A DNA stretch of 12,362 nt from Nitrospirota bacterium. Lineage in GTDB: Bacteria > UBA2233. This document shows, piece after piece, positions 1,764 through 12,362 of the stretch. The notes beneath the pieces were generated by a model. That model ran no database searches. It had not been told where the DNA came from and saw nothing but the letters and a program-made list of their open reading frames with translations. The position numbers and the translations under genes were made by a program. The stretch lies in assembly GCA_011620345.1 (NCBI GenBank), contig WOZJ01000008.1, positions 1 through 12,362 on the forward strand, given 5' to 3'. Each line of letters starts with the position of its first letter. The first letter of the stretch is position 1.

Positions 1764-1876
1764 ATAGGCGAGGCATTCGTCCCACCATTACGCCCCCGCC
1801 CTATCCGCCGGGCCTGGAAAGCCCCGGCTATCGTCGTGGGAGATACACCATTCGCCCCCCTATAGGCGAGGCATTC
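1764..1876. repeat. Degenerate repeat area between convergent genes
   Basis: The 15-mer ATAGGCGAGGCATTC occurs at 1764-1778 and 1862-1876, each followed within a few bases by GTCCC. Between the copies lie two related C-rich tracts and an imperfect hairpin (GCCGGG / CCCGGC near 1808-1829). It looks like a decayed intergenic repeat. No coding signal is convincing between 1701 and 1941. Confidence 0.5.
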
Positions 1877-1927
1877 ACGTCCCGCCTGTTTGGCCGTACC
1901 GCCCGGGTTTGAAAACCATGGGCTATT

Positions 1928-1950
1928 AAGGGCTCGGACAATTAGCCCTT
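1928..1950 (-). terminator. Possible terminator hairpin of the sat-cysH operon
   Basis: Perfect 7-base arms AAGGGCT / AGCCCTT are separated by 9 bases and overlap the cysH stop codon. The next bases on the minus strand are AATAGCCC, not a U-run, so it is only a weak terminator candidate. Confidence 0.4.
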
Positions 1951-2661
1951 CTGGACGTTGCCCATGTGCAGGCCGCATTCCTTTTTGGTCGCCTCTTCCC
2001 ACCACCAACGGCCCTCTCGCTCGTGCTGGCCAGGGTTCACAGGCTTTGTACAGGGCTCGCAGCCGATCGAGACAAACCCTTTCTCGTGCAGCTCGTTGTA
2101 AGGAACGCCGTTTTCTACGATGTAGCCCCAGACCTGCTTCAAGCTCCAGTCGGCCAGGGGGTTGAACTTGACCAATCGATCCGTAAAGAACGTCGGGTCT
2201 ACCTGGACAACGGGAACGCGTGCCCTAGTGCCCGGGTTCTGGTCGTGGCGCTGGCCTGTCATCCAGGCCTCGAGCGTCGAGAGTATCCGCTTCAAGGGCT
2301 CGACCTTTCGAATACCGCAGCATTCACTATGACCTTCCTCGTAGAACGAGAAGAAGCCCTTTTGGGTCGTGAGGCGCTCGATTTCATTTGCATCCGGGAA
2401 CTGCACGTGGATCGCGATTCCATAGTGCTTACGCACACGATCTAAAAACCTGTAGGTCTCGGAGTGCAGCCTTCCCGTATCGAGGGTAAACACGCGAAAT
2501 TGCCGGCCGGTACGCTTGGCCATGTCGATCAACACGACGTCCTCGGCTCCGCTGAACGAAATGGCAAGGTTCGGGAAGCGCTCGAGCGCCTCGGCCACGA
2601 TCTCCACGGGATGGCTATGCTCGAGTGCTTGGTTCAGGCGTTCAATCTCTTGGGCGTTCAT
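1942..2661 (-). CDS. cysH: Adenylyl-sulfate reductase, iron-sulfur type (CysH family)
   Basis: Reduces activated sulfate to sulfite with thioredoxin or a similar donor, in cytosolic sulfate assimilation. The 239-residue protein has the PAPS-reductase fold motifs [13 protein letters not shown] (P-loop-like, about 35-47) and [10 protein letters not shown]. It carries the cysteine pairs Cys114-Cys115 and Cys201/Cys204 (GCEPC) that hold a [4Fe-4S] cluster in plant and bacterial APS reductases, and the catalytic Cys229 in ECGLH. In this family the two pairs mark APS rather than PAPS use, so the product is better called APS reductase. The start ATG has an excellent ribosome site (AAAAGGAGG, 7-base spacing). 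The gene follows sat by 100 bases on the same strand, which supports a joint operon. Confidence 0.95.
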
Positions 2662-2761
2662 GGTATTTCCTCCTTTTTTTACGCATCTTTAAAGGATCTA
2701 GCTCTTTACGGGGCCGCCCCTCCCCGGATGGGCGCGAGCCCAGATATTGATGATCGAGGCC

Positions 2762-3931
2762 TCAGCCAACGTGGGAGCGCATCGCATCGATCAACACCCT
2801 GGCAACCGCAGGCCTTGTGATCTCCTTGCCCGGCATCTCGCCATTCAAAAGTAGCTCTCTTAGCTTTGTTCCCGAAAGCGAAACGTGCGAGGAAGACGGG
2901 TGAGGGCAGGTCTTTGCCGTGGCCATCGCCTCGCAAGCGTTGCAGTAGAAGGCGTTGTCGAACTTGAGGATTTCCATTTCGAGTGCGCCCTTTGGGAGCG
3001 TATCGAATATTTTTTGGGCATCGAACGTGCCGTAGTAGCTGCCAACACCCGCATGGTCTCTACCCACGATGAAATGGGTACAGCCGTAGTTGAGGCGCAC
3101 AATCGCATGGAAAATGGCCTCCTTTGGGCCTGCATAGCGCATCGTGGCCGGGTTGATTCCGAGCACGACCCTGTCCTTGGGGAAGTAGTGCTCGATGAGC
3201 ACCTCGTAGCAGCGCATCCGAACGTCCGCCGGCACGTCGTCCGCCTTGGTCGCGCCGACGAGCGGGTGGAGGAACACCCCGTCCACTACCTCCAGCGCGC
3301 ATTTGATCAAGTATTCATGCGCCCTGTGGATGGGGTTGCGCGTCTGGAATCCGACGATCGTCTTCCAGCCCCTTTCCTGGAAGGCTTTGCGCGCGTCTAA
3401 AGGGCTCAAGCGGTGCTCGGGGAAGAGTTTAGGCAAGCGATCCAAATCGGCAAACGCCCTACCCGCCACAACCTGCGGGCTTTCTTCAAAGAGCATAGCC
3501 ACGCCAGGGTGTGCGGCATCGTCCGTTCCGAACGTGGCAAGCGCTTCTCTTTGGAGGTCGCGCTCGAACGCGTCCTCGACCTCCACGTAGCCTACGACCT
3601 TCCCCTCAAAGCAAAGGCCCACCGTTTCGCCAGGCTTGAGGGCTTTTTGAGGGTCGTCCAAGGGAAGCGTGATGGGGAAAGGGAAGAGCGTACCGTTTTG
3701 AAGGCACATGTCCTTAAGGACGTTTTCGTAATCCGCCTGGCCCATGAAGCCCGTAAGTGGGCTCAAGCCCCCGCTGGCGATCAGCTCCAAGTCCGAGAGC
3801 GCCTTGAGCCCCAGCTCGATGGCGTTTGTCTCGAGGGGCTCAACCTGGCAGCTTTCTAATCGGACGGCCTGACTTTGGACCAAGGGCCCTCCATGGGCCT
3901 TTGTGTGCACTTTGGATGAAGTAGACTGCAT
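2762..3931 (-). CDS. sat: Sulfate adenylyltransferase (ATP sulfurylase, Sat type)
   Basis: Makes APS and pyrophosphate from ATP and sulfate, the first step of sulfate activation. The 389-residue single-chain (non-CysDN) enzyme shows the active-site motif QTRNPIHRAHE at about 196-206, then HPLVGATKADDVP, GRDHAGVG and the C-terminal SGTKLRELL. Cysteines in FYCNACEAM and the following TCPH match the zinc-binding site of many bacterial Sat proteins. No APS-kinase domain is fused. The frame is open to an ATG at 3949, but the ATG at 3931 has GGAGGAA 9 bases upstream while 3949 has no ribosome site, so 3931 is preferred. Pairing with an APS-type cysH points to an assimilatory role; no dissimilatory aprAB or dsr gene is in view. 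Confidence 0.95.
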   Translation of the reverse strand: MQSTSSKVHTKAHGGPLVQSQAVRLESCQVEPLETNAIELGLKALSDLELIASGGLSPLTGFMGQADYENVLKDMCLQNGTLFPFPITLPLDDPQKALKPGETVGLCFEGKVVGYVEVEDAFERDLQREALATFGTDDAAHPGVAMLFEESPQVVAGRAFADLDRLPKLFPEHRLSPLDARKAFQERGWKTIVGFQTRNPIHRAHEYLIKCALEVVDGVFLHPLVGATKADDVPADVRMRCYEVLIEHYFPKDRVVLGINPATMRYAGPKEAIFHAIVRLNYGCTHFIVGRDHAGVGSYYGTFDAQKIFDTLPKGALEMEILKFDNAFYCNACEAMATAKTCPHPSSSHVSLSGTKLRELLLNGEMPGKEITRPAVARVLIDAMRSHVG

Positions 3932-3986
3932 CAGGGTTGCTTCCTCCATGATTCAAATAATTATTTATTGCAATGTAAGCCCGCTT

Positions 3987-4009
3987 AAAAAATGGCAAGA
4001 AACATGCCA
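3987..4009 (-). terminator. Intrinsic terminator of the crcB-DUF190 operon
   Basis: On the minus strand TGGCA-TGTTTCT-TGCCA is followed by six Ts. The stem is short (5 bp), but the U-run and the position 66-88 bases past the DUF190 stop fit a terminator. It separates this operon from sat. Between it and the sat start lies an AT-rich segment with the palindrome AAATAATTATTT (about 3956-3967), a possible sat promoter or operator area without clear boxes. Confidence 0.55.
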
Positions 4010-4074
4010 GGCACCTGAACGCCAAGACAGGGCCGACTAGCCCGGCCTACCGGACAACGCCCCCCGTCCACGCC

Positions 4075-4419
4075 TTAACCCTTCGGCCCGTCAGGCCTGT
4101 AGAAGACGACGTTGGCCGCCTCTTTCGTGATGAGCCCTTCTTTGATCACCGCATCCAAGAATGGAAGGATTTTTCCTACGTTCTCCTCGGTGTCAACGAT
4201 CTCGACGACGACTGGGAGGTCCTCGGAGAGCCTCAAGATCTTGGCAGTGTGGATCTTCGAGTGCGCCCCGAACCCGAGCATGCCCTTAAAGACCGTCCCT
4301 CCAGATAGCCCGAGCGCACGAGCCTTCTCTAGGATCGCCTGGTAGAGGGGCTTGCCGCCGTAGTGGTCGCTTTCTCCGATGAACACCCTCAAGAGCACGC
4401 ATCTCCCTTCAAGTCGCAT
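4075..4419 (-). CDS. DUF190 protein, PII-like partner of CrcB
   Basis: A 114-residue soluble protein of the DUF190 family, a small PII-like fold found again and again beside crcB. The sequence shows the family pattern GESDHYGGKPLYQAILEKA, then GGTVFKGMLGFG, then LPVVVEIVDTEE. Its biochemical role is not established; association with the fluoride channel suggests a regulatory or accessory part in fluoride tolerance (inference). The start ATG is preceded by GGGGAGG with 7-base spacing. The gene begins 15 bases after the crcB stop on the same strand, so the two are co-transcribed and probably translated together under the fluoride riboswitch. Confidence 0.9.
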   Translation of the reverse strand: MRLEGRCVLLRVFIGESDHYGGKPLYQAILEKARALGLSGGTVFKGMLGFGAHSKIHTAKILRLSEDLPVVVEIVDTEENVGKILPFLDAVIKEGLITKEAANVVFYRPDGPKG

Positions 4420-4434
4420 CGTCGAACCTCCCCG

Positions 4435-4809
4435 CTAAAAGAGACGAAAGAGGGTCAGGCCCAATAGCATCGAACCCAGGCCAAGCGCATGGCTGAGCGT
4501 AAAATATAAAAACGCTGTCAGGTAGGCCCGGTCCTCGAGCATGGAAAGCGCTTCAAAGACGAAAGAGGAAAACGTTGTGAACGCGCCGACAAACCCGATC
4601 AGCAAAACGGCCCTGGTCTCGCTCGAGATCAAGAAACGCTCTTCTGCGGCCCCAAAGATCAGCCCGAACAGGAAACATCCGAGCGTATTCACGGCAAGCG
4701 TACCAGCAGGGAAAAGGGCAGGAGTTCGAGTTTGAACCCAGCCGGCCATCGCATACCTTAGGAATGCGCCCGCCCCTCCCAAAAAGAACAGCGCTCCCAT
4801 CTTCCACAC
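4435..4809 (-). CDS. crcB: Fluoride channel CrcB/Fluc
   Basis: Small inner-membrane channel that exports fluoride as a dual-topology dimer. It has four hydrophobic segments and the family motifs GGAGAFLRY near the N-terminus, GTLAVNTLGCFLFG in the second segment, and GFVGAFTTFSSF in the third (the TTFSSF break that carries the pore phenylalanines). The GTG at 4809 is chosen because AGGAGGG (4825-4819) lies 9 bases upstream and the product is 124 residues, the usual size. The ATG at 4800 is an alternative. The longest frame starts at an ATG at 4890 and would give 151 residues, but its first ~17 codons are the fluoride riboswitch itself and resemble no CrcB N-terminus. Identity is firm; the exact start is moderate. 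Confidence 0.95.
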   Translation of the reverse strand: MWKMGALFFLGGAGAFLRYAMAGWVQTRTPALFPAGTLAVNTLGCFLFGLIFGAAEERFLISSETRAVLLIGFVGAFTTFSSFVFEALSMLEDRAYLTAFLYFTLSHALGLGSMLLGLTLFRLF

Positions 4810-4822
4810 AGGTCTCAACCCT

Positions 4823-4848
4823 CCTACCAAGCCCATCGCCCTAGTAGG
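4823..4848 (-). promoter_or_regulatory. Candidate expression platform covering the crcB ribosome site
   Basis: CCTAC (4848-4844) can pair with GTAGG (4827-4823). The first arm shares two bases with the 3' strand of riboswitch helix P1, and the second arm overlaps the AGGAGGG ribosome site. Formation of P1 with fluoride would therefore free the ribosome site. This is a translational-control model inferred from complementarity only. Confidence 0.45.
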
Positions 4849-4894
4849 CGTCATCAGCCCTGTCTGGAAGGCAGTTTTGGAGGACGCCATCTCC
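4844..4894 (-). promoter_or_regulatory. Fluoride riboswitch (crcB motif)
   Basis: The minus strand shows the crcB-motif architecture in order. GGAG (4894-4891) pairs in a pseudoknot with CTCC (4882-4879). After AT comes P1 5' strand GGCGTC (4888-4883), fully complementary to GACGCC (4852-4847). An AAAACT linker leads to a P3 hairpin (GCCT 4872-4869 with GGGC 4860-4857), followed by the conserved CTGATG and then CTACT. It matches segment by segment my recollection of the Thermotoga petrophila fluoride aptamer. It sits about 10 bases after the predicted transcription start and directly upstream of crcB, the classic target, so the genetic context supports the call independently. Confidence 0.94.
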
Positions 4895-4910
4895 TTTTGC
4901 TCTGTTTTTC

Positions 4911-4919
4911 AATATAACA
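4911..4919 (-). promoter_or_regulatory. Extended -10 promoter of the crcB operon
   Basis: TGTTATATT on the minus strand is a TG-N-TATATT extended -10 box with no recognisable -35. The predicted start (about 4904) places the riboswitch aptamer right at the 5' end of the transcript. Confidence 0.6.
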
Positions 4920-4920
4920 T

Positions 4921-4946
4921 AAAAAGTCCCGATGCATGCCGCATCG
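4921..4946 (-). terminator. Hairpin followed by T-run upstream of the crcB promoter
   Basis: CGATGC-GGCAT-GCATCG (4946-4930 on the minus strand) is followed by GGGAC and five Ts (4925-4921), resembling an intrinsic terminator. No minus-strand gene is visible just upstream, so it may instead be an operator-like dyad beside the crcB promoter. Confidence 0.4.
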
Positions 4947-5048
4947 AACAAATGGCACTAGCATATTCTTGGCGATATGCAAAACACTCCTTAATTTTTA
5001 AACGCGCCAAATAGGCTGGCATTTTTGCTCGAAAGGCAGGTTGAAATA

Positions 5049-5069
5049 ATTCATAAAATTATTATGAAT
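5049..5069. promoter_or_regulatory. AT-rich perfect palindrome, operator-like
   Basis: ATTCATAA-AATTA-TTATGAAT is a perfect 8-5-8 inverted repeat. Just downstream AGGTATAA occurs twice (5077-5084 and 5091-5098), the second ending in a consensus TATAAT (5094-5099, plus strand). The layout resembles a repressor site beside a promoter. The regulator family cannot be told from the sequence; only a loose resemblance to Fur/PerR-type sites is visible. Confidence 0.45.
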
Positions 5070-5423
5070 ATACCCAGGTATAAAATTCCAAGGTATAATG
5101 GCGATATCTCTTTCTCCCTAGCTCGCCTTCACGGGTATGCCCTATGGCAAGCATGCCTGGACGACGATCGATGGCGCCTGAATATTCCAAAAACACGGGG
5201 CTGTGAGCCTTGTATGCATTGACATGCCCGTATGCGAGTGGATATGATTCAAGACGGACCGGACCTTTAACTGCAACTTTGATTTTTCCAGGGAGGAGAA
5301 CACCCACTCTCAAGCCTACAGACGGCCTCAAGGGGTTGGCTTTGCGAAAGAGCGTGGGTAAGCCCGCGAAGGACTTGGAGCGATGAATCGGCTTCTCCAA
5401 GGAATAATGCCTTCTTTCGACTT

Positions 5424-6941: not shown

Positions 6942-7970
6942 ATGGACTTGCAAGCAATCTGGTACTTCCTTTGGGTGCTCTTATGGGCTGTTTATTTTGC
7001 TACCGACGGGTTCGATCTGGGAATCGGAGCTCTTCTGCCTTTCCTGGGCAAGAATGATGAAGAAAAAAGGATCATGTTCAACTCGATCGGTCCTTTGTGG
7101 GATGGAAACGAGGTCTGGTTGATCACTGCCGGCGGTGTTACCTTTGCCGCCTTCCCGCTGATGTATGCGGTGATGTTCAGCTCACTGTACTCGGCATTGA
7201 TGTTGATACTCTTTGCTTTGATTATCAGGGGGGTCGCTTTTGAATTCCGAGGCAAGATCGACAGCCCCGGATGGAAGAAGTTGTGGGATTTTTGTCTGTT
7301 CATCGGTAGCCTTGTCCCCTCATTCCTCTTCGGCGTCGCATTCGCCAACATTTTTCAGGGCATCCCGATCGATGACAAGGGGGTCTATCACGGAACGTTG
7401 TTCACGCTGCTAAACCCTTACGGCATTCTGGGAGGCGCCCTATTTTTCCTTTTATTCCTTGTCCATGGTGCAATCTGGCTCGCCATCAAAAGCGATGGCG
7501 ACCTTCACGACCGCGCGGCAAGAACCGCAAGCGGGCTCTGGCCGGTTTTGCTTGTCGTCGCCGTCGTATTCCTGATCGCTTCGAAATTTACCACCCCGAT
7601 CTATGACAACTATACGGCCCATCCGATGCTGTTTCTACTCATCCTGATCACCGTGCTGGCCCTTTTAGGGGTAAAACTGTTTCTTTCCCTGAAGAACTAC
7701 TGGACGGCATGGCTTTCTTCAGCCGTAACGATCATCGGGGCAACCTTTTTCGGTTTCGTCGGGCTTTTCCCGAACATGTTCCCGTCGAGCCTGAACCCCG
7801 CCTTCAGTCTGACGGCATACAACGCCTCTTCGAGTCATCTGACTCTGCAAATTATGTTTACGCTTGCCGTGATTTTTGTTCCAGTGGTGCTTGCCTACCA
7901 GATCTGGGTATACAGCCTGTTCCGGCACAAGGTCTCCAAAGAGGAACTCGGGTACGACGAGGCCTATTGA
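6942..7970 (+). CDS. cydB: Cytochrome bd quinol oxidase subunit II
   Basis: Integral membrane partner of CydA, needed for haem assembly and stability of the oxidase. The 342-residue length is normal. The N-terminus LQAIWYFLWVLLWAVYFATD with GFDLGIGALLPFL is characteristic, as is the following IGPLWDGNEVWLITAGG motif. Several further hydrophobic spans follow. The start ATG is preceded by GGGAGG with 6-base spacing. Codon choice resembles cydA and is less GC-rich than the flanking genes. No cydX-like small frame follows within the next 100 bases. Confidence 0.96.
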   Translation: MDLQAIWYFLWVLLWAVYFATDGFDLGIGALLPFLGKNDEEKRIMFNSIGPLWDGNEVWLITAGGVTFAAFPLMYAVMFSSLYSALMLILFALIIRGVAFEFRGKIDSPGWKKLWDFCLFIGSLVPSFLFGVAFANIFQGIPIDDKGVYHGTLFTLLNPYGILGGALFFLLFLVHGAIWLAIKSDGDLHDRAARTASGLWPVLLVVAVVFLIASKFTTPIYDNYTAHPMLFLLILITVLALLGVKLFLSLKNYWTAWLSSAVTIIGATFFGFVGLFPNMFPSSLNPAFSLTAYNASSSHLTLQIMFTLAVIFVPVVLAYQIWVYSLFRHKVSKEELGYDEAY

Positions 7971-8007: not shown

Positions 8008-8047
8008 CGGCATTCATCCCTCGGCTTCGGTCGCGGGATGAATGCCG
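8008..8047. terminator. Very stable UUCG-capped hairpin downstream of cydAB
   Basis: CGGCATTCATCCC (8008-8020) and GGGATGAATGCCG (8035-8047) are perfect 13-base arms. Inside, CGGC-TTCG-GTCG forms four more pairs with a UUCG tetraloop, leaving one mismatch (8021/8034). It likely ends or protects the cydAB transcript. Part of the arm resembles the repeats at 1771 and 1869. Confidence 0.6.
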
Positions 8048-8168
8048 TTCATGCCTTCTTTTGCGCCTCAAACGCGGGAACCCCTCTCTCTAGACCTTGG
8101 ACGTCTATCCCTTTATTCGTAGCATAACCTAGCCGGGGGCAATGTTCGGCAGGTAGCAAGGTTTCTCC

Positions 8169-8191
8169 AGCGCCCTAGCGCTTCCTACAAA
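8169..8191. promoter_or_regulatory. Candidate enhancer (activator) site upstream of the sigma-54 promoter
   Basis: The dyad AGCGC-CCTA-GCGCT (8169-8182) is followed at once by TCCTACAAA (8183-8191). The latter equals 9 of 10 bases of the half-site of the palindrome before the kinase gene (9434-9454). It lies about 75-95 bases before the predicted start at about 8265, a usual place for NtrC-type activator sites. Assignment is by position and partial match only. Confidence 0.35.
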
Positions 8192-8238
8192 AATAGCGAC
8201 TCATCGGACAAAGGCAAAACGAATGCCAAAGCGCATAA

Positions 8239-8254
8239 TGGCATGGTTTTTGCA
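8239..8254 (+). promoter_or_regulatory. Sigma-54 promoter (-24/-12)
   Basis: TGGCATG-GTTT-TTGCA matches the TGGCACG-N4-TTGCW consensus. The invariant GG (8240-8241) and GC (8252-8253) are exactly 10 bases apart. Predicted start is near 8265, giving a ~49-base leader to the ATG at 8314. A sigma-54 activator gene lies about 3 kb downstream. Confidence 0.75.
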
Positions 8255-8313
8255 TCTACTTATTAGTGAGTCTATCCAATTCAATGAACCACTTCCAAAA
8301 AAGGAGGATCTTT

Positions 8314-8631
8314 ATGGAAGGGACTTTCAAGAAACGCATGGCCATCCTAGGCGCAAGCCTCGGGCTCCTATCCAGCCCGGCGCTGCTTGCTTCGGCGCTT
8401 GCCTACGAGCATTCTGGCCAGTCCTCGCTCGTGCAGCTTGCCGCTAAGGGCAAGAAGAAGGAAAAGAAGCCTATGCAGGAGACCTTCGAGCTTGCCGCAA
8501 AAGGCAAGAAAAAGGAGAAGAAGCCCCAAGAACACTTCGCCCAGGCTTCCGTCATGCAGCTTGCCGCCGCTAAGGGAAAGAAGGCGCCCAAGAAGCCACA
8601 AACCCCGCCTCCTAGCTCGCCCAGCATGTAG
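8314..8631 (+). CDS. Secreted lysine-rich repeat protein, unknown function
   Basis: A 105-residue protein with a Sec-type signal peptide: FKKR, a hydrophobic core, then ALA at 28-30, so cleavage is likely before YEHSG. The mature ~75 residues hold three copies of LAAKGKKKEKKP (48 residues in from the start at about 42-53, again at 60-71, and the variant LAAAKGKKAPKKP at 83-95), separated by short linkers rich in Q, E, F and H; the tail is proline- and serine-rich. About 17 lysines and no cysteine give a basic, probably unfolded periplasmic or surface protein. The ATG has AAGGAGG 6 bases upstream; the earlier in-frame ATG at 8266 is at the predicted transcription start. It is driven by a sigma-54 promoter and precedes a two-component system. 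It loosely recalls lysine-rich acid-shock (Asr) proteins, but I do not recognise a family. Confidence 0.8.
   Translation: MEGTFKKRMAILGASLGLLSSPALLASALAYEHSGQSSLVQLAAKGKKKEKKPMQETFELAAKGKKKEKKPQEHFAQASVMQLAAAKGKKAPKKPQTPPPSSPSM
8437..8598 (+). repeat. Three in-frame lysine repeats
   Basis: Units at 8437-8472, 8491-8526 and 8560-8598 encode LAAKGKKKEKKP or a close variant. The copies differ mostly at third codon positions (for example AAG/AAA), so the protein repeat is kept by selection rather than by recent DNA duplication (inference). Confidence 0.8.
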
Positions 8632-8639
8632 CCTGCCAT

Positions 8640-8682
8640 CCCTGCGCCCCAATCTCGTTGGGGCGCAGGGCCTTTATTATTT
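8640..8682 (+). terminator. Intrinsic terminator after the lysine-rich gene
   Basis: Perfect 13-base arms CCCTGCGCCCCAA (8640-8652) and TTGGGGCGCAGGG (8658-8670) enclose a TCTCG loop, followed by CCTTTATTATTTT. The small gene is therefore probably a separate transcript. Confidence 0.85.
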
Positions 8683-8688
8683 TATAAT
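8683..8688 (+). promoter_or_regulatory. Consensus -10 box directly before the methyltransferase gene
   Basis: TATAAT lies 7 bases before the ATG at 8696, so transcription starting there would give a leaderless mRNA or force use of a later start. A -35 is unclear (TTGGGG at 8658, 19-base spacer, inside the terminator stem). Confidence 0.4.
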
Positions 8689-8695
8689 TATATTT

Positions 8696-9430
8696 ATGGA
8701 AGTGCTCGGAAGTCTTTTCTACCGTTTAGGAGATACCTTTTTGCCTTTAGGCGTGCTCCTGCTTGTACTTGGCACGCAAGAGGTCGATGGAACTCCTGAG
8801 GCTTTCTTGTGGGTCATGGCAGGGTTTGGGCTTGCTTTTTTTGGCCAGCTCCTTAGGATCCTGACCGTTGGGTTCACGGAGATCAGCTACGGAGAAGAGA
8901 CTGGGGAGTTGTATGCCGAACGGCTCATTCAAGATGGGCTCTACGCCTTCCTGAGAAACCCCCTGTACTTGGGCAACTTTTTGATTGGGGTTGGCCTTCT
9001 TTGGCTGACGCATCGCCCGATGTTTCTTGTTTGTGGGACGTTGGGCCTTTGGGCTTGGACGCTCCTGCTCGTTGAGGCAGAAGAGGCTTACTTAGAAAAG
9101 AGGTTCAAAGAAGCCTACACGCTGTATAAAAAACGCGTGCCTAGGTTCTTTCCCCATCGAAAAAGCCCGTGGAAAGGCTTGAGCCCGGGGCGCTTCGAGA
9201 CCCGCAGGGTTCTGGTCAAGGAGGCGGATACGGCGTTGGCCTGGACCGGAACGTTGTGTTTGATGCTTGCCCGTGGCTACGGAAAACCCCTTCTTCGGCC
9301 TTCCCTCCTCCCGATCTTGGGCGCTTGCCTTTTGATGCTGAGCGTGACCTGGCGCCCCTTCCGGCTCGTTCTTCACCGGACAAAGAAGGCACCCTTGGTA
9401 CCTGATCCTTCCAAAGACTACAATTTTTGA
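8696..9430 (+). CDS. Isoprenylcysteine carboxyl methyltransferase-like membrane protein
   Basis: Membrane protein of the ICMT/phospholipid-methyltransferase superfamily, which uses S-adenosylmethionine. It has hydrophobic spans at about 15-27, 36-55, 92-108 and 110-130. The signature GLYAFLRNPLYLGNF is followed by an EEAYLEKRF...YKKRVPRFFP motif that forms the cofactor-binding end in the family. The C-terminal part has two more hydrophobic stretches. Its substrate is unknown; bacterial members often act on lipids or small molecules rather than isoprenylated proteins. The frame is open far upstream into the lysine-rich gene, but that part is shadow. The ATG at 8696 has no ribosome site; an in-frame TTG at 8741 has TTAGGAGA 7 bases upstream and would give 229 residues. 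Either start is possible. It ends 39 bases before the kinase gene. Confidence 0.8.
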   Translation: MEVLGSLFYRLGDTFLPLGVLLLVLGTQEVDGTPEAFLWVMAGFGLAFFGQLLRILTVGFTEISYGEETGELYAERLIQDGLYAFLRNPLYLGNFLIGVGLLWLTHRPMFLVCGTLGLWAWTLLLVEAEEAYLEKRFKEAYTLYKKRVPRFFPHRKSPWKGLSPGRFETRRVLVKEADTALAWTGTLCLMLARGYGKPLLRPSLLPILGACLLMLSVTWRPFRLVLHRTKKAPLVPDPSKDYNF

Positions 9431-9433
9431 AGG

Positions 9434-9454
9434 ATCCTACAAATTTTGTAGGAT
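9434..9454. promoter_or_regulatory. Perfect 21-base palindrome before the kinase gene
   Basis: ATCCTACAAA-T-TTTGTAGGAT is a perfect 10-1-10 inverted repeat, 15 bases before the kinase ATG and 3 bases before its ribosome site GGAGG (9458-9462). It could be an operator for autoregulation. Weak promoter boxes TTGAAG (9427-9432) and TAGGAT (9449-9454) bracket it. Confidence 0.55.
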
Positions 9455-9469
9455 AACGGAGGCCAGGGC

Positions 9470-11212
9470 ATGGACATGAGCGCAAGAGAATCGGGCATAA
9501 GATTTCCCATGCGGCTCAAGCTCCTGCTCGCCTTCCTCGGGCTTAGCATCCCTTTGATGCTTCTTGCCGCCTTCCTGGCTAGCAGGGCAGCCTACGATGT
9601 GTACGAACACAATGTGGCCGCCTGGCAGAAGGAGGCGACGGACTCGTTCTTCAAGGCCTTCCACAACGACGAGAAAGAGGCCGAGCATGCCGCGGCCTTC
9701 CTGCTCGAGCGATTCCTTGAGGAATCCAAGGCCCAAACAGACTTCGAAGGCCTCGGACAAAGGCTCGGTCATATGGCCAGCGATGAGGGCTATGAAACAC
9801 TTATACTCATGGACCAAGGCGGCGAGGTCCGCTACAGCCCCATCCCGGCAGGGAGCCTTAGGGTCTATTCACTCCAAGAAGGGCTTGAGCTTTTCGTCCT
9901 CGAGAGGGCCCAGGGCCCAAGGGTACTGCTTGGAGCCCTCCGACCTTTCCGCTTCCAGGGCGCGCCGATGCGGCTTTTCTTGGGCAACCCCTTGCCCGGA
10001 GCCATGGAGGGGTTCGAAGACCTCCCCTTCTTGGAGGTACGCCTCTACATCCTCGAAGGAAAGTGGCTGCGCGGAGTCTACAGCTCCAATGGAACCTTCC
10101 CGATCGCCACGCTAGGAGAAAGCGTCTTGCGAGGCCTCGCCCAAAAAGGCGGGCTTTTGCTGCTCAAAGACCAAGAAGAGGGCTTCATGGCAAGCCTAAG
10201 GCCCCTTAGGGATAAAGAGGGCACTTTAAGGGCGGCGCTTTTTGTGGGGCTTCGCCAAAAGGCCAATATTCCCTACGGCATCGCGCCAAGGCACGTGTTC
10301 CTTAGCGTTTTCTTCATTGGAGCGTTGGTATCGTTCGTCTTCGCCACGCTGCTTTCCAGGCCTTTGAGCGCCCCGATCCGGAAGCTCGCCAAGGCTGCCC
10401 TTGCGATCCGGGGGGGAGATTATACCCAAAGAATCGAGGTCAAGGGCCGAGACGAGATTGCCTACTTGGCAAGGACGTTCAACCAAATGGCCCAAAAACT
10501 TCAAGAGCTCAAACGCCTCGAGGCGGAGCTCAGCCTCAAGGAGCGCATCGGGGCGATGGGCGAACTCGCCCTGGGAATCGCGCACGAGGTCCGGAACCCA
10601 CTGGGCATCATCAAGGCTTCCGCCCAGCTCATCCAAAGGAAGGGAGAGCTTGAGCCATCTCTGGCAAGGCTTATGGGGCAGCTCATCGAGCAGGTGGACA
10701 GGATCGAAGCGCTGCTAAGCAACTTCCTTCGGTTCGGAAGGCCGTCTGCGGAGACCCACTTCGCCCTTTTGGACCCGAAGGCCCTTATCGAGCGCTGCCT
10801 CAAGTTCTGCGAGCTCAAGCTCAAGGAGCAGAAGGTCCAAGTAAGCATCGAAGACCTCGCAGACGGGGCGAAAATCCTGGCCGACGAAGCGCTTGTGTTC
10901 GAGGCTGTGCTGAACATTGTCCTAAACGCCATGGAGGCCATGCCCCAGGGTGGGTCCCTCAAGGTCAGGCTAGAAAGAGAGGACGGGTCGTTGTTGATGG
11001 GCTTCCAAGATACAGGCCACGGTATCCCCCAGGGGTTAATGGGGCGCATCCTCGAGCCTTTCTTCACGACCAAGCCGAGCGGGACTGGGCTTGGGCTTAC
11101 GAGGGTCTATCATGTCATGCAAGCCCACCTTGGCAACTTGCGTGTCGGGACCAAAGAAGGAGAAGGCGCCGTGTTCACGCTCGTTTTCCCGATCGCAGGG
11201 ATGGAGGGCTGA
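9470..11212 (+). CDS. Membrane sensor histidine kinase (NtrB/ZraS/AtoS-like)
   Basis: A 580-residue two-component sensor. TM1 lies at about 15-36, a periplasmic sensing domain of ~235 residues at about 37-274, and TM2 at about 276-298. A HAMP domain follows at about 299-350, then a HisKA dimerisation helix with phospho-accepting His372 in AHEVRNP. The HATPase domain has N-box Asn482/Asn486 (NIVLNAMEAM), G1 DTGHGIP from 514, F-box EPFFTTK and G2 GTGLGL from 538. No PAS domain is evident between HAMP and HisKA. The periplasmic domain resembles the Cache-like sensors of this class only in size; its ligand is unknown. The start ATG has GGAGG with 7-base spacing. It ends 2 bases before the response regulator gene, so they are co-translated and form a cognate pair. 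Confidence 0.93.
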   Translation: MDMSARESGIRFPMRLKLLLAFLGLSIPLMLLAAFLASRAAYDVYEHNVAAWQKEATDSFFKAFHNDEKEAEHAAAFLLERFLEESKAQTDFEGLGQRLGHMASDEGYETLILMDQGGEVRYSPIPAGSLRVYSLQEGLELFVLERAQGPRVLLGALRPFRFQGAPMRLFLGNPLPGAMEGFEDLPFLEVRLYILEGKWLRGVYSSNGTFPIATLGESVLRGLAQKGGLLLLKDQEEGFMASLRPLRDKEGTLRAALFVGLRQKANIPYGIAPRHVFLSVFFIGALVSFVFATLLSRPLSAPIRKLAKAALAIRGGDYTQRIEVKGRDEIAYLARTFNQMAQKLQELKRLEAELSLKERIGAMGELALGIAHEVRNPLGIIKASAQLIQRKGELEPSLARLMGQLIEQVDRIEALLSNFLRFGRPSAETHFALLDPKALIERCLKFCELKLKEQKVQVSIEDLADGAKILADEALVFEAVLNIVLNAMEAMPQGGSLKVRLEREDGSLLMGFQDTGHGIPQGLMGRILEPFFTTKPSGTGLGLTRVYHVMQAHLGNLRVGTKEGEGAVFTLVFPIAGMEG

Positions 11213-11214
11213 CG

Positions 11215-12362
11215 ATGGAAGGGCGCGTCCTGGTGGTTGACGACGAACCCGGCATGCTAGAAGTGCTCTCCATGGCCCTCGAGGAAATGGGCTACAGGGC
11301 GCTTGTGACCCAAAGCCCTGAAAGGGCGCTTGAAATATTGAGGACCGAGGAAATCGAGCTGGCACTGTTGGACATCCGGATGCCCGGGATGGACGGCCGA
11401 GAGCTCATGCAAAAGATCAAGGAGCATTCCCCCCGGCTCCCGGTCGTGTTCCTTACGGCTTTCGGCAACATCAAGGATGCGGTGTCCGCTATCAAGGAGG
11501 GTGCCTTCGATTATTTAAGCAAGCCTTTCAACCTCGAAGACCTCCAGGCCGTCCTTGCCAGGGGCATACGTTACACAAGCCTCCTTAAGGATAACGAACG
11601 CCTAAGGGAGGCGCTCGAGGGCCGCTACAGCTTTAAAGGGATCATCGGCACAAGCCTAAAGATGAGGGCCGTGATCGAGGCAATCTCCAAGGTGTGCGAG
11701 AGCAACGTGAGCGTGCTCATCCTTGGCGAGTCAGGGACGGGCAAGGAGCTCGTCGCCCGGGCCGTTCATTTCAACTCACCAAGGAAGGATGGGCCGTTTC
11801 TTGCGATCAACTGCGCGGCCATCCCCGAGGGCCTTTTGGAAAGCGAACTCTTCGGCTATGTCAAGGGGGCATTCACGGGGGCTACGGGCAACAAGCCGGG
11901 CAAGTTTGCCCAGGCCAACAAGGGAACGCTCTTTTTGGACGAAATCGGCGACATGCCCTTAGGTCTGCAATCGAGGATTCTTAGGGTCCTACAGGAGCGC
12001 GCCTTCGAACCATTAGGGAGCAGCAAGCTCCAAAGCGTGGACGTGCGTATCGTCGCCGCCACGAACAAGGACCTGAAGGCTATGGTCCAAGCGGGGGCTT
12101 TCAGGGAAGACCTCTACTTCAGGCTCAACGTCTACCCTATCCAGCTTCCGTCCTTAAGGGAGCGCAAGGAGGACATCCCGCAGCTTGCCTTTCATTTCCT
12201 CACACAATCGGCCGAGGCGATGGGCAAGCGCATCAAGGGGTTGACGCCCTCGGCGCTCGAGGCCATGGCCCGCTACAGATGGCCCGGCAACGTAAGGGAG
12301 CTGATCAACTGCATCGAGCGGGCGGTGATTGTAAGCCAGGATGCGTTCATCGACCTTGCCGA
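11215..12362 (+). CDS. Sigma-54-dependent response regulator, NtrC family (partial, cut by window end)
   Basis: Cognate regulator of the preceding kinase. The receiver domain (1-~120) has Asp9/Asp10, phospho-acceptor Asp53 in LLDIRMPGMDG, Thr81 and Lys103. The central AAA+ domain has Walker A GESGTGKE from 171, the sigma-54 contact loop GAFTGA at 218-223, Walker B LFLDEIGD with Asp242-Glu243, then RVLQERAFEPLG, the arginine-rich FREDLYFRLNVYPI and WPGNVREL. The reading frame is open to the last base, so at least 382 residues are present and the Fis-type DNA-binding helix-turn-helix lies beyond the window. With an intact GAFTGA it should activate sigma-54 promoters, and one such promoter sits at 8239 upstream in the same cluster. 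It resembles ZraR/AtoC/HydG-type regulators; the signal is unknown. Confidence 0.96.
   Translation, partial: MEGRVLVVDDEPGMLEVLSMALEEMGYRALVTQSPERALEILRTEEIELALLDIRMPGMDGRELMQKIKEHSPRLPVVFLTAFGNIKDAVSAIKEGAFDYLSKPFNLEDLQAVLARGIRYTSLLKDNERLREALEGRYSFKGIIGTSLKMRAVIEAISKVCESNVSVLILGESGTGKELVARAVHFNSPRKDGPFLAINCAAIPEGLLESELFGYVKGAFTGATGNKPGKFAQANKGTLFLDEIGDMPLGLQSRILRVLQERAFEPLGSSKLQSVDVRIVAATNKDLKAMVQAGAFREDLYFRLNVYPIQLPSLRERKEDIPQLAFHFLTQSAEAMGKRIKGLTPSALEAMARYRWPGNVRELINCIERAVIVSQDAFIDLA

Follow-up and report, generated by a model that had tools for sequence, protein, structure and literature searches.

Background

In the zraP-zraSR system, divergent promoters, both sigma-54-dependent, were described, and the combination of a ZraP-type effector with such promoters is characteristic of it (PMC4987338). 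Another well-described envelope protein is Asr of E. coli, an intrinsically disordered periplasmic chaperone that helps acid-stressed cells to maintain outer-membrane integrity and is strongly acid-induced (PMC10746267). This study concerns a locus that shares traits with each of them, from a lineage about whose envelope stress hardly anything is known. The window (i.e. the whole stretch of DNA analysed) is an entire contig of 12,362 bases from a draft genome of 1.8 Mb. The comparison set for the source phylum was composed of two genomes, the source and one congener, from a single genus.

The right third of the window carries a small open reading frame (ORF), a PEMT/ICMT-superfamily gene, a sensor kinase gene and a regulator gene, all on the plus strand as seen from the ORF list and Pfam (Table 1). 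An earlier note on this DNA had reported there a near-consensus -24/-12 promoter, a small exported polycation without Cys/His cluster, an ICMT-like membrane methyltransferase and a sensor kinase with an NtrC-type regulator displaying an intact GAFTGA motif. Our results confirmed each of these parts: the sigma-54 site proved to be exact and the domains were retrieved by Pfam. That the group forms a single working system is a reasonable guess. The same note had drawn a parallel with the zraP-zraSR layout, which did not hold, as the genes of the locus are co-directional, no -24/-12 site precedes the kinase operon and a terminator isolates the small gene.

Table 1. Features of the locus, from the end of the part common with the congener to the contig edge.
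Feature	Position	Strand	Basis and remarks
Hairpin after cydB	8008-8047	+	16-nt inverted repeat, 94% complementary; last feature common with the congener
TCCTACAAAA, candidate half-site for an activator, ahead of the small gene	8183-8192	+	10-mer common with the pre-kinase palindrome; weak
Sigma-54 -24/-12 promoter TGGCATGGTTTTTGCA (probable)	8239-8254	+	TGGCAYRNNNNTTGCW matched exactly nowhere else in the window
Exported Lys-rich repeat protein, 105 aa	8314-8631	+	ORF (3' part of ORF 8266-8631), repeats, composition
Predicted intrinsic terminator of the small gene	8640-8670	+	14-bp stem, -28.9 kcal/mol, z -6.5, T-rich tail (folding only)
PEMT/ICMT-superfamily membrane methyltransferase, 244 aa	8696-9430	+	Pfam PF04191, PF04140
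21-bp palindrome ATCCTACAAAtTTTGTAGGAT ahead of the kinase gene	9434-9454	.	10+10 perfect arms around one base
Membrane sensor histidine kinase, 580 aa	9470-11212	+	Pfam HAMP-HisKA-HATPase; TM near 18-36 and 276-294
NtrC-type response regulator, cut by the contig end	11215-12362	+	Pfam Receiver, Sigma54_activat, AAA lid

Results and discussion

Small lysine-rich protein

The small protein opens with a KKR n-region, followed by a hydrophobic core (residues 11-25) and, ahead of YEHS, the signal-peptidase motif ALA; three imperfect copies of a 37-nt Lys-rich repeat follow the signal region in the gene. The presumed mature protein contains 23% Lys, with a net charge of about +11 and a pI of about 10.1, and the protein includes no Cys and only two His. 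By composition, it belongs to the same physical class as Asr, that of small exported low-complexity polycations. No family was matched in Pfam or NCBIfam, and no homologue was found in the congener, 386 genomes, plasmids and viral contigs. Matches at E 0.009-0.1 in 12 genomes were rejected as low-complexity chance, several of them containing internal stops.

This isolation in all collections searched would suit a fast-evolving low-complexity exported protein of little selected function, kept by chance behind a coincidental promoter-like site. We consider this improbable, since a Shine-Dalgarno (SD) sequence, a signal peptide, a terminator and an exact -24/-12 site all occur together, only ~3e-4 matches to such a site are expected in 100 nt on one strand, and the GC3 of the gene (0.726) is like that of core genes. 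The signal peptide and the repeats of a polycationic unit, together with the lack of Cys (hence of a lipobox) and of any membrane anchor after the signal peptide, would also fit a surface or extracellular polycation, not a periplasmic stress protein, with adhesion to minerals, to cells or to matrix polymers as its role. This appears rather doubtful: neither secretion machinery nor matrix genes accompany the small gene in the window, and location is predictable only as far as Sec export.

Probable sigma-54 promoter

The -24/-12 site displays consensus spacing and is followed by AGGAGG and by the ATG of the small gene, 60 nt downstream of the site. Genome-wide, TGGCAYNNNNNTTGCW occurred at 11 sites, against 2 for the reversed control pattern. 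Seven of the 11 were located shortly upstream of plausible starts, among which those of nifB and lpxC (gene names assigned by reading translations), and exact sites preceded both genes in the two species of the genus (loci L103, L104, L111 and L112). Besides a single RpoN, the genome has about seven clear enhancer-binding proteins. The presence of RpoN, the excess of sites over the control and the nifB and lpxC sites in both species make the promoter call credible, and the promoter of the small gene is probably real.

No NifA-type TGT-N10-ACA enhancer was found upstream of the small gene or of the genome's other sites tested, and dyads upstream of the small gene were at chance level. The tetranucleotide TAGC, present there in five copies, was rejected as an enhancer repeat, as 28% of shuffles contained some 4-mer equally often.

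Several of the genomic sites deserve mention in their own right. Those ahead of lpxC in both species suggest RpoN control of lipid A synthesis. On contig C68, three sites lie within 1.6 kb (L003 near 1501; L114 and L115) and precede a small exported-looking protein region, a glycosyltransferase and an MFS transporter. A 54-aa ORF (MPETxKAIAFHQDA...) also displays a sigma-54 site upstream in both species (L110 and L116, near 1501). Together, the genome sites would provide a first sketch of a sigma-54 regulon in this group, covering nitrogen fixation, lipid A synthesis and transport.

Transcription units

A strong terminator is predicted between the small gene and the methyltransferase gene. Methyltransferase, kinase and regulator probably form a separate transcription unit, and an exact-match scan of the window revealed no sigma-54 site ahead of the kinase operon. 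The palindrome ATCCTACAAAtTTTGTAGGAT was unique in the genome at up to 3 mismatches, with an RNA fold z of -1.9, and is a candidate operator or mRNA hairpin. The occurrence of TCCTACAAAA in both upstream regions hints weakly at a common operator; any 10-mer shared between these regions was seen in 11 of 1000 shuffles.

Methyltransferase

The two Pfam assignments of the methyltransferase exceeded their gathering thresholds (36.6 versus 25 for PF04191 and 32.3 versus 24 for PF04140), and its RNPLY and VPRFFP motifs were intact. The top NCBIfam model was LmtA (TIGR04571), at 57.8 bits for a cut-off of 325. A paralogue conserved in the genus (contig C15) scored 81.2 bits on the same model; since it fits LmtA better, the methyltransferase of the window can be called only loosely LmtA-like.

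Kinase and regulator

The H-box histidine of the kinase, H372 (HEVRNPL), was intact, and the regulator displayed GAFTGA, Walker A and the receiver motif DIRMP. The reading of the regulator stops before the HTH at the contig edge, which is not the gene end, and no overlapping contig end was found in the genome. The sensor domain (window 9560-10300) matched no Pfam family at E up to 10 and has no solved relative; its single-sequence structure model was poor (pLDDT 52) and a fold search gave no significant match. The domain still aligned along its length with kinases from alphaproteobacterial plasmids.

Kinase relatives that were full-length, sensor included, came from Roseomonas and Aureimonas plasmids, with 29-31% identity and adjoining regulators, the Roseomonas one being 52% identical to the regulator of the window. 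Neighbours of these pairs were HAD phosphatase, hydrolase, GNAT and EamA genes, that is, metabolic-looking operons, and no small Lys-rich exported gene was found near them. In the other 70 kinase relatives found, similarity was mainly in the catalytic half, and their flanks contained no exported Lys-rich gene behind a -24/-12 site. The earlier note had suggested checking whether homologues of the small protein co-occur with the pair elsewhere. This test failed, as the protein yielded no homologue and the loci of the kinase relatives lacked such a gene.

Comparison with the congener

The congener was colinear with the window through cydAB, at 95% identity, up to position 8063, with unrelated genes thereafter. 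The block from 8064 onward was missing after cydB in the congener. Orthologues of the kinase and the small protein were both missing from its whole genome, and the only methyltransferase of this type, 33% identical, was located elsewhere. With a congener genome ~93% complete, absence of the block genes is likely, not certain. We regard the block as accessory because it is missing from the congener, genome-wide for the kinase and the small protein. Recent horizontal transfer was considered and found unsupported by composition, as GC and GC3 match those of core genes.

Two further differences were recorded. A block with cysH, sat, DUF190 and crcB (1784-5109) is inserted between PEPCK and cydA in the window; in the congener these two genes are joined, and their matches lie only about one base apart. 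Just downstream of cydB, the congener displays a 115-bp piece 93% identical to the cysH 3' end (L140, reverse complement, 7519-7633 versus window 1951-2065), which hints at a rearrangement or deletion there.

Proposed function

The reading that we favour, with a probability of about 0.35, is that of an accessory envelope-stress locus in which a sigma-54-driven periplasmic polycation would act like Asr, the adjacent pair perhaps being its inducer. The membrane kinase would sense a periplasmic signal and, judging from the intact domains, phosphorylate the NtrC-type regulator. The latter would activate RpoN polymerase at 8239-8254, where the sequence supports a promoter and the choice of activator is presumed. 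Expression of the small protein would be strong and self-contained, ending at the terminator predicted by folding, and the product would be exported by Sec to the periplasm. As a disordered polycation, it could coat or screen anionic partners there, for instance polyphosphate, misfolded anionic proteins or the phosphate groups of lipid A. Since LpxC is present in the genome, this organism likely makes lipid A. More tentatively, the PEMT/LmtA-like neighbour might add methyl groups to a lipid of the envelope as part of this response. A stronger version, in which one sigma-54 pair couples a secreted polycation masking phosphates to a methyltransferase capping them, as a lineage-specific envelope defence, is improbable.

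Support for the favoured reading comes from the exact site with its SD and start, RpoN and the nifB and lpxC sites in two species; from the signal peptide, the Lys-rich repeats and a composition close to that of Asr; from the adjacent kinase and regulator with intact motifs and the shared TCCTACAAAA; and from LpxC. It is weakened by the lack of a homologue of the small protein with which promoter and linkage could be compared, by six other enhancer-binding proteins that could drive the promoter, by the metabolic-looking operons in which related pairs sit without such a gene, and by the missing Asr family match.

On the regulatory question, control by another activator is an equal rival. The small gene would then be the sigma-54 target of another enhancer-binding protein, the pair would control a target past the contig end and their adjacency would be accidental. 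The seven clear enhancer-binding proteins of the genome fit such a possibility, as do sigma-54 sites serving unrelated genes (nifB, lpxC, transporters), related pairs lying in operons of other genes and the terminator isolating the small gene. Yet, the genes form one block missing at the same place in the congener, whose genome lacks both the kinase and the small protein, and TCCTACAAAA is common to both upstream regions. The link between the small gene and the pair is based on their adjacency, on the congener lacking both and on this one shared 10-mer. The module proposed in the earlier note is thus partly sustained: an RpoN-encoding genome with enhancer-binding proteins, a functional-looking promoter, an exported polycation and an adjacent NtrC-type pair speak for it; the zraP-zraSR layout and co-occurrence do not.

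Comparison with known systems

The Roseomonas and Aureimonas plasmid pairs share full-length kinase likeness and the kinase-regulator gene order with the window, but they differ from it by the absence of an exported Lys-rich gene among their neighbours. LmtA, the Leptospira lipid A Kdo2 1-phosphate methyltransferase, belongs to the same superfamily as the gene of the window and provides its best curated model; the gene remains far under the cut-off, and the C15 paralogue is closer.

The parallel with zraP-zraSR is loose. Common points are a small exported effector, a sigma-54 promoter and an NtrC-family pair nearby, and ZraS and ZraR were among the closest NCBIfam models for the pair. Their cut-offs were not reached (159 versus 479 and 374 versus 760 bits, truncation of the regulator lowering its score somewhat), and the effector, with its lack of Cys, two His and no match in either database, gave no sign of being a ZraP-homologous metal binder.

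Asr is the nearest well-studied protein by size, charge and composition, a likeness of kind rather than demonstrated homology. Both Asr (b1597) and the small protein are composed of about 100 residues, with a Sec signal, Lys-rich repeats and no Cys, and their values are close (length 105 versus 102, mature net charge about +11 versus +14.5, pI 10.1 versus 10.5 for the small protein and Asr, respectively). The two differ by the absence of a His cluster in the small protein. Pairwise, they match at 28%, a value from a comparison in which the corrections for low complexity and for composition were switched off. A Pfam search extended to E 10 matched no Asr family profile and yielded only the unrelated FSAF1 (E 0.11). 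The asr gene is under PhoB/RstA-type control and is not known to be sigma-54-driven. We regard the present locus as a lineage-specific variant. If the favoured reading is true, Asr-type periplasmic polycation stress proteins arose independently outside enterobacteria, and here such a protein would obey a different control logic, that of sigma-54 and a dedicated two-component pair.
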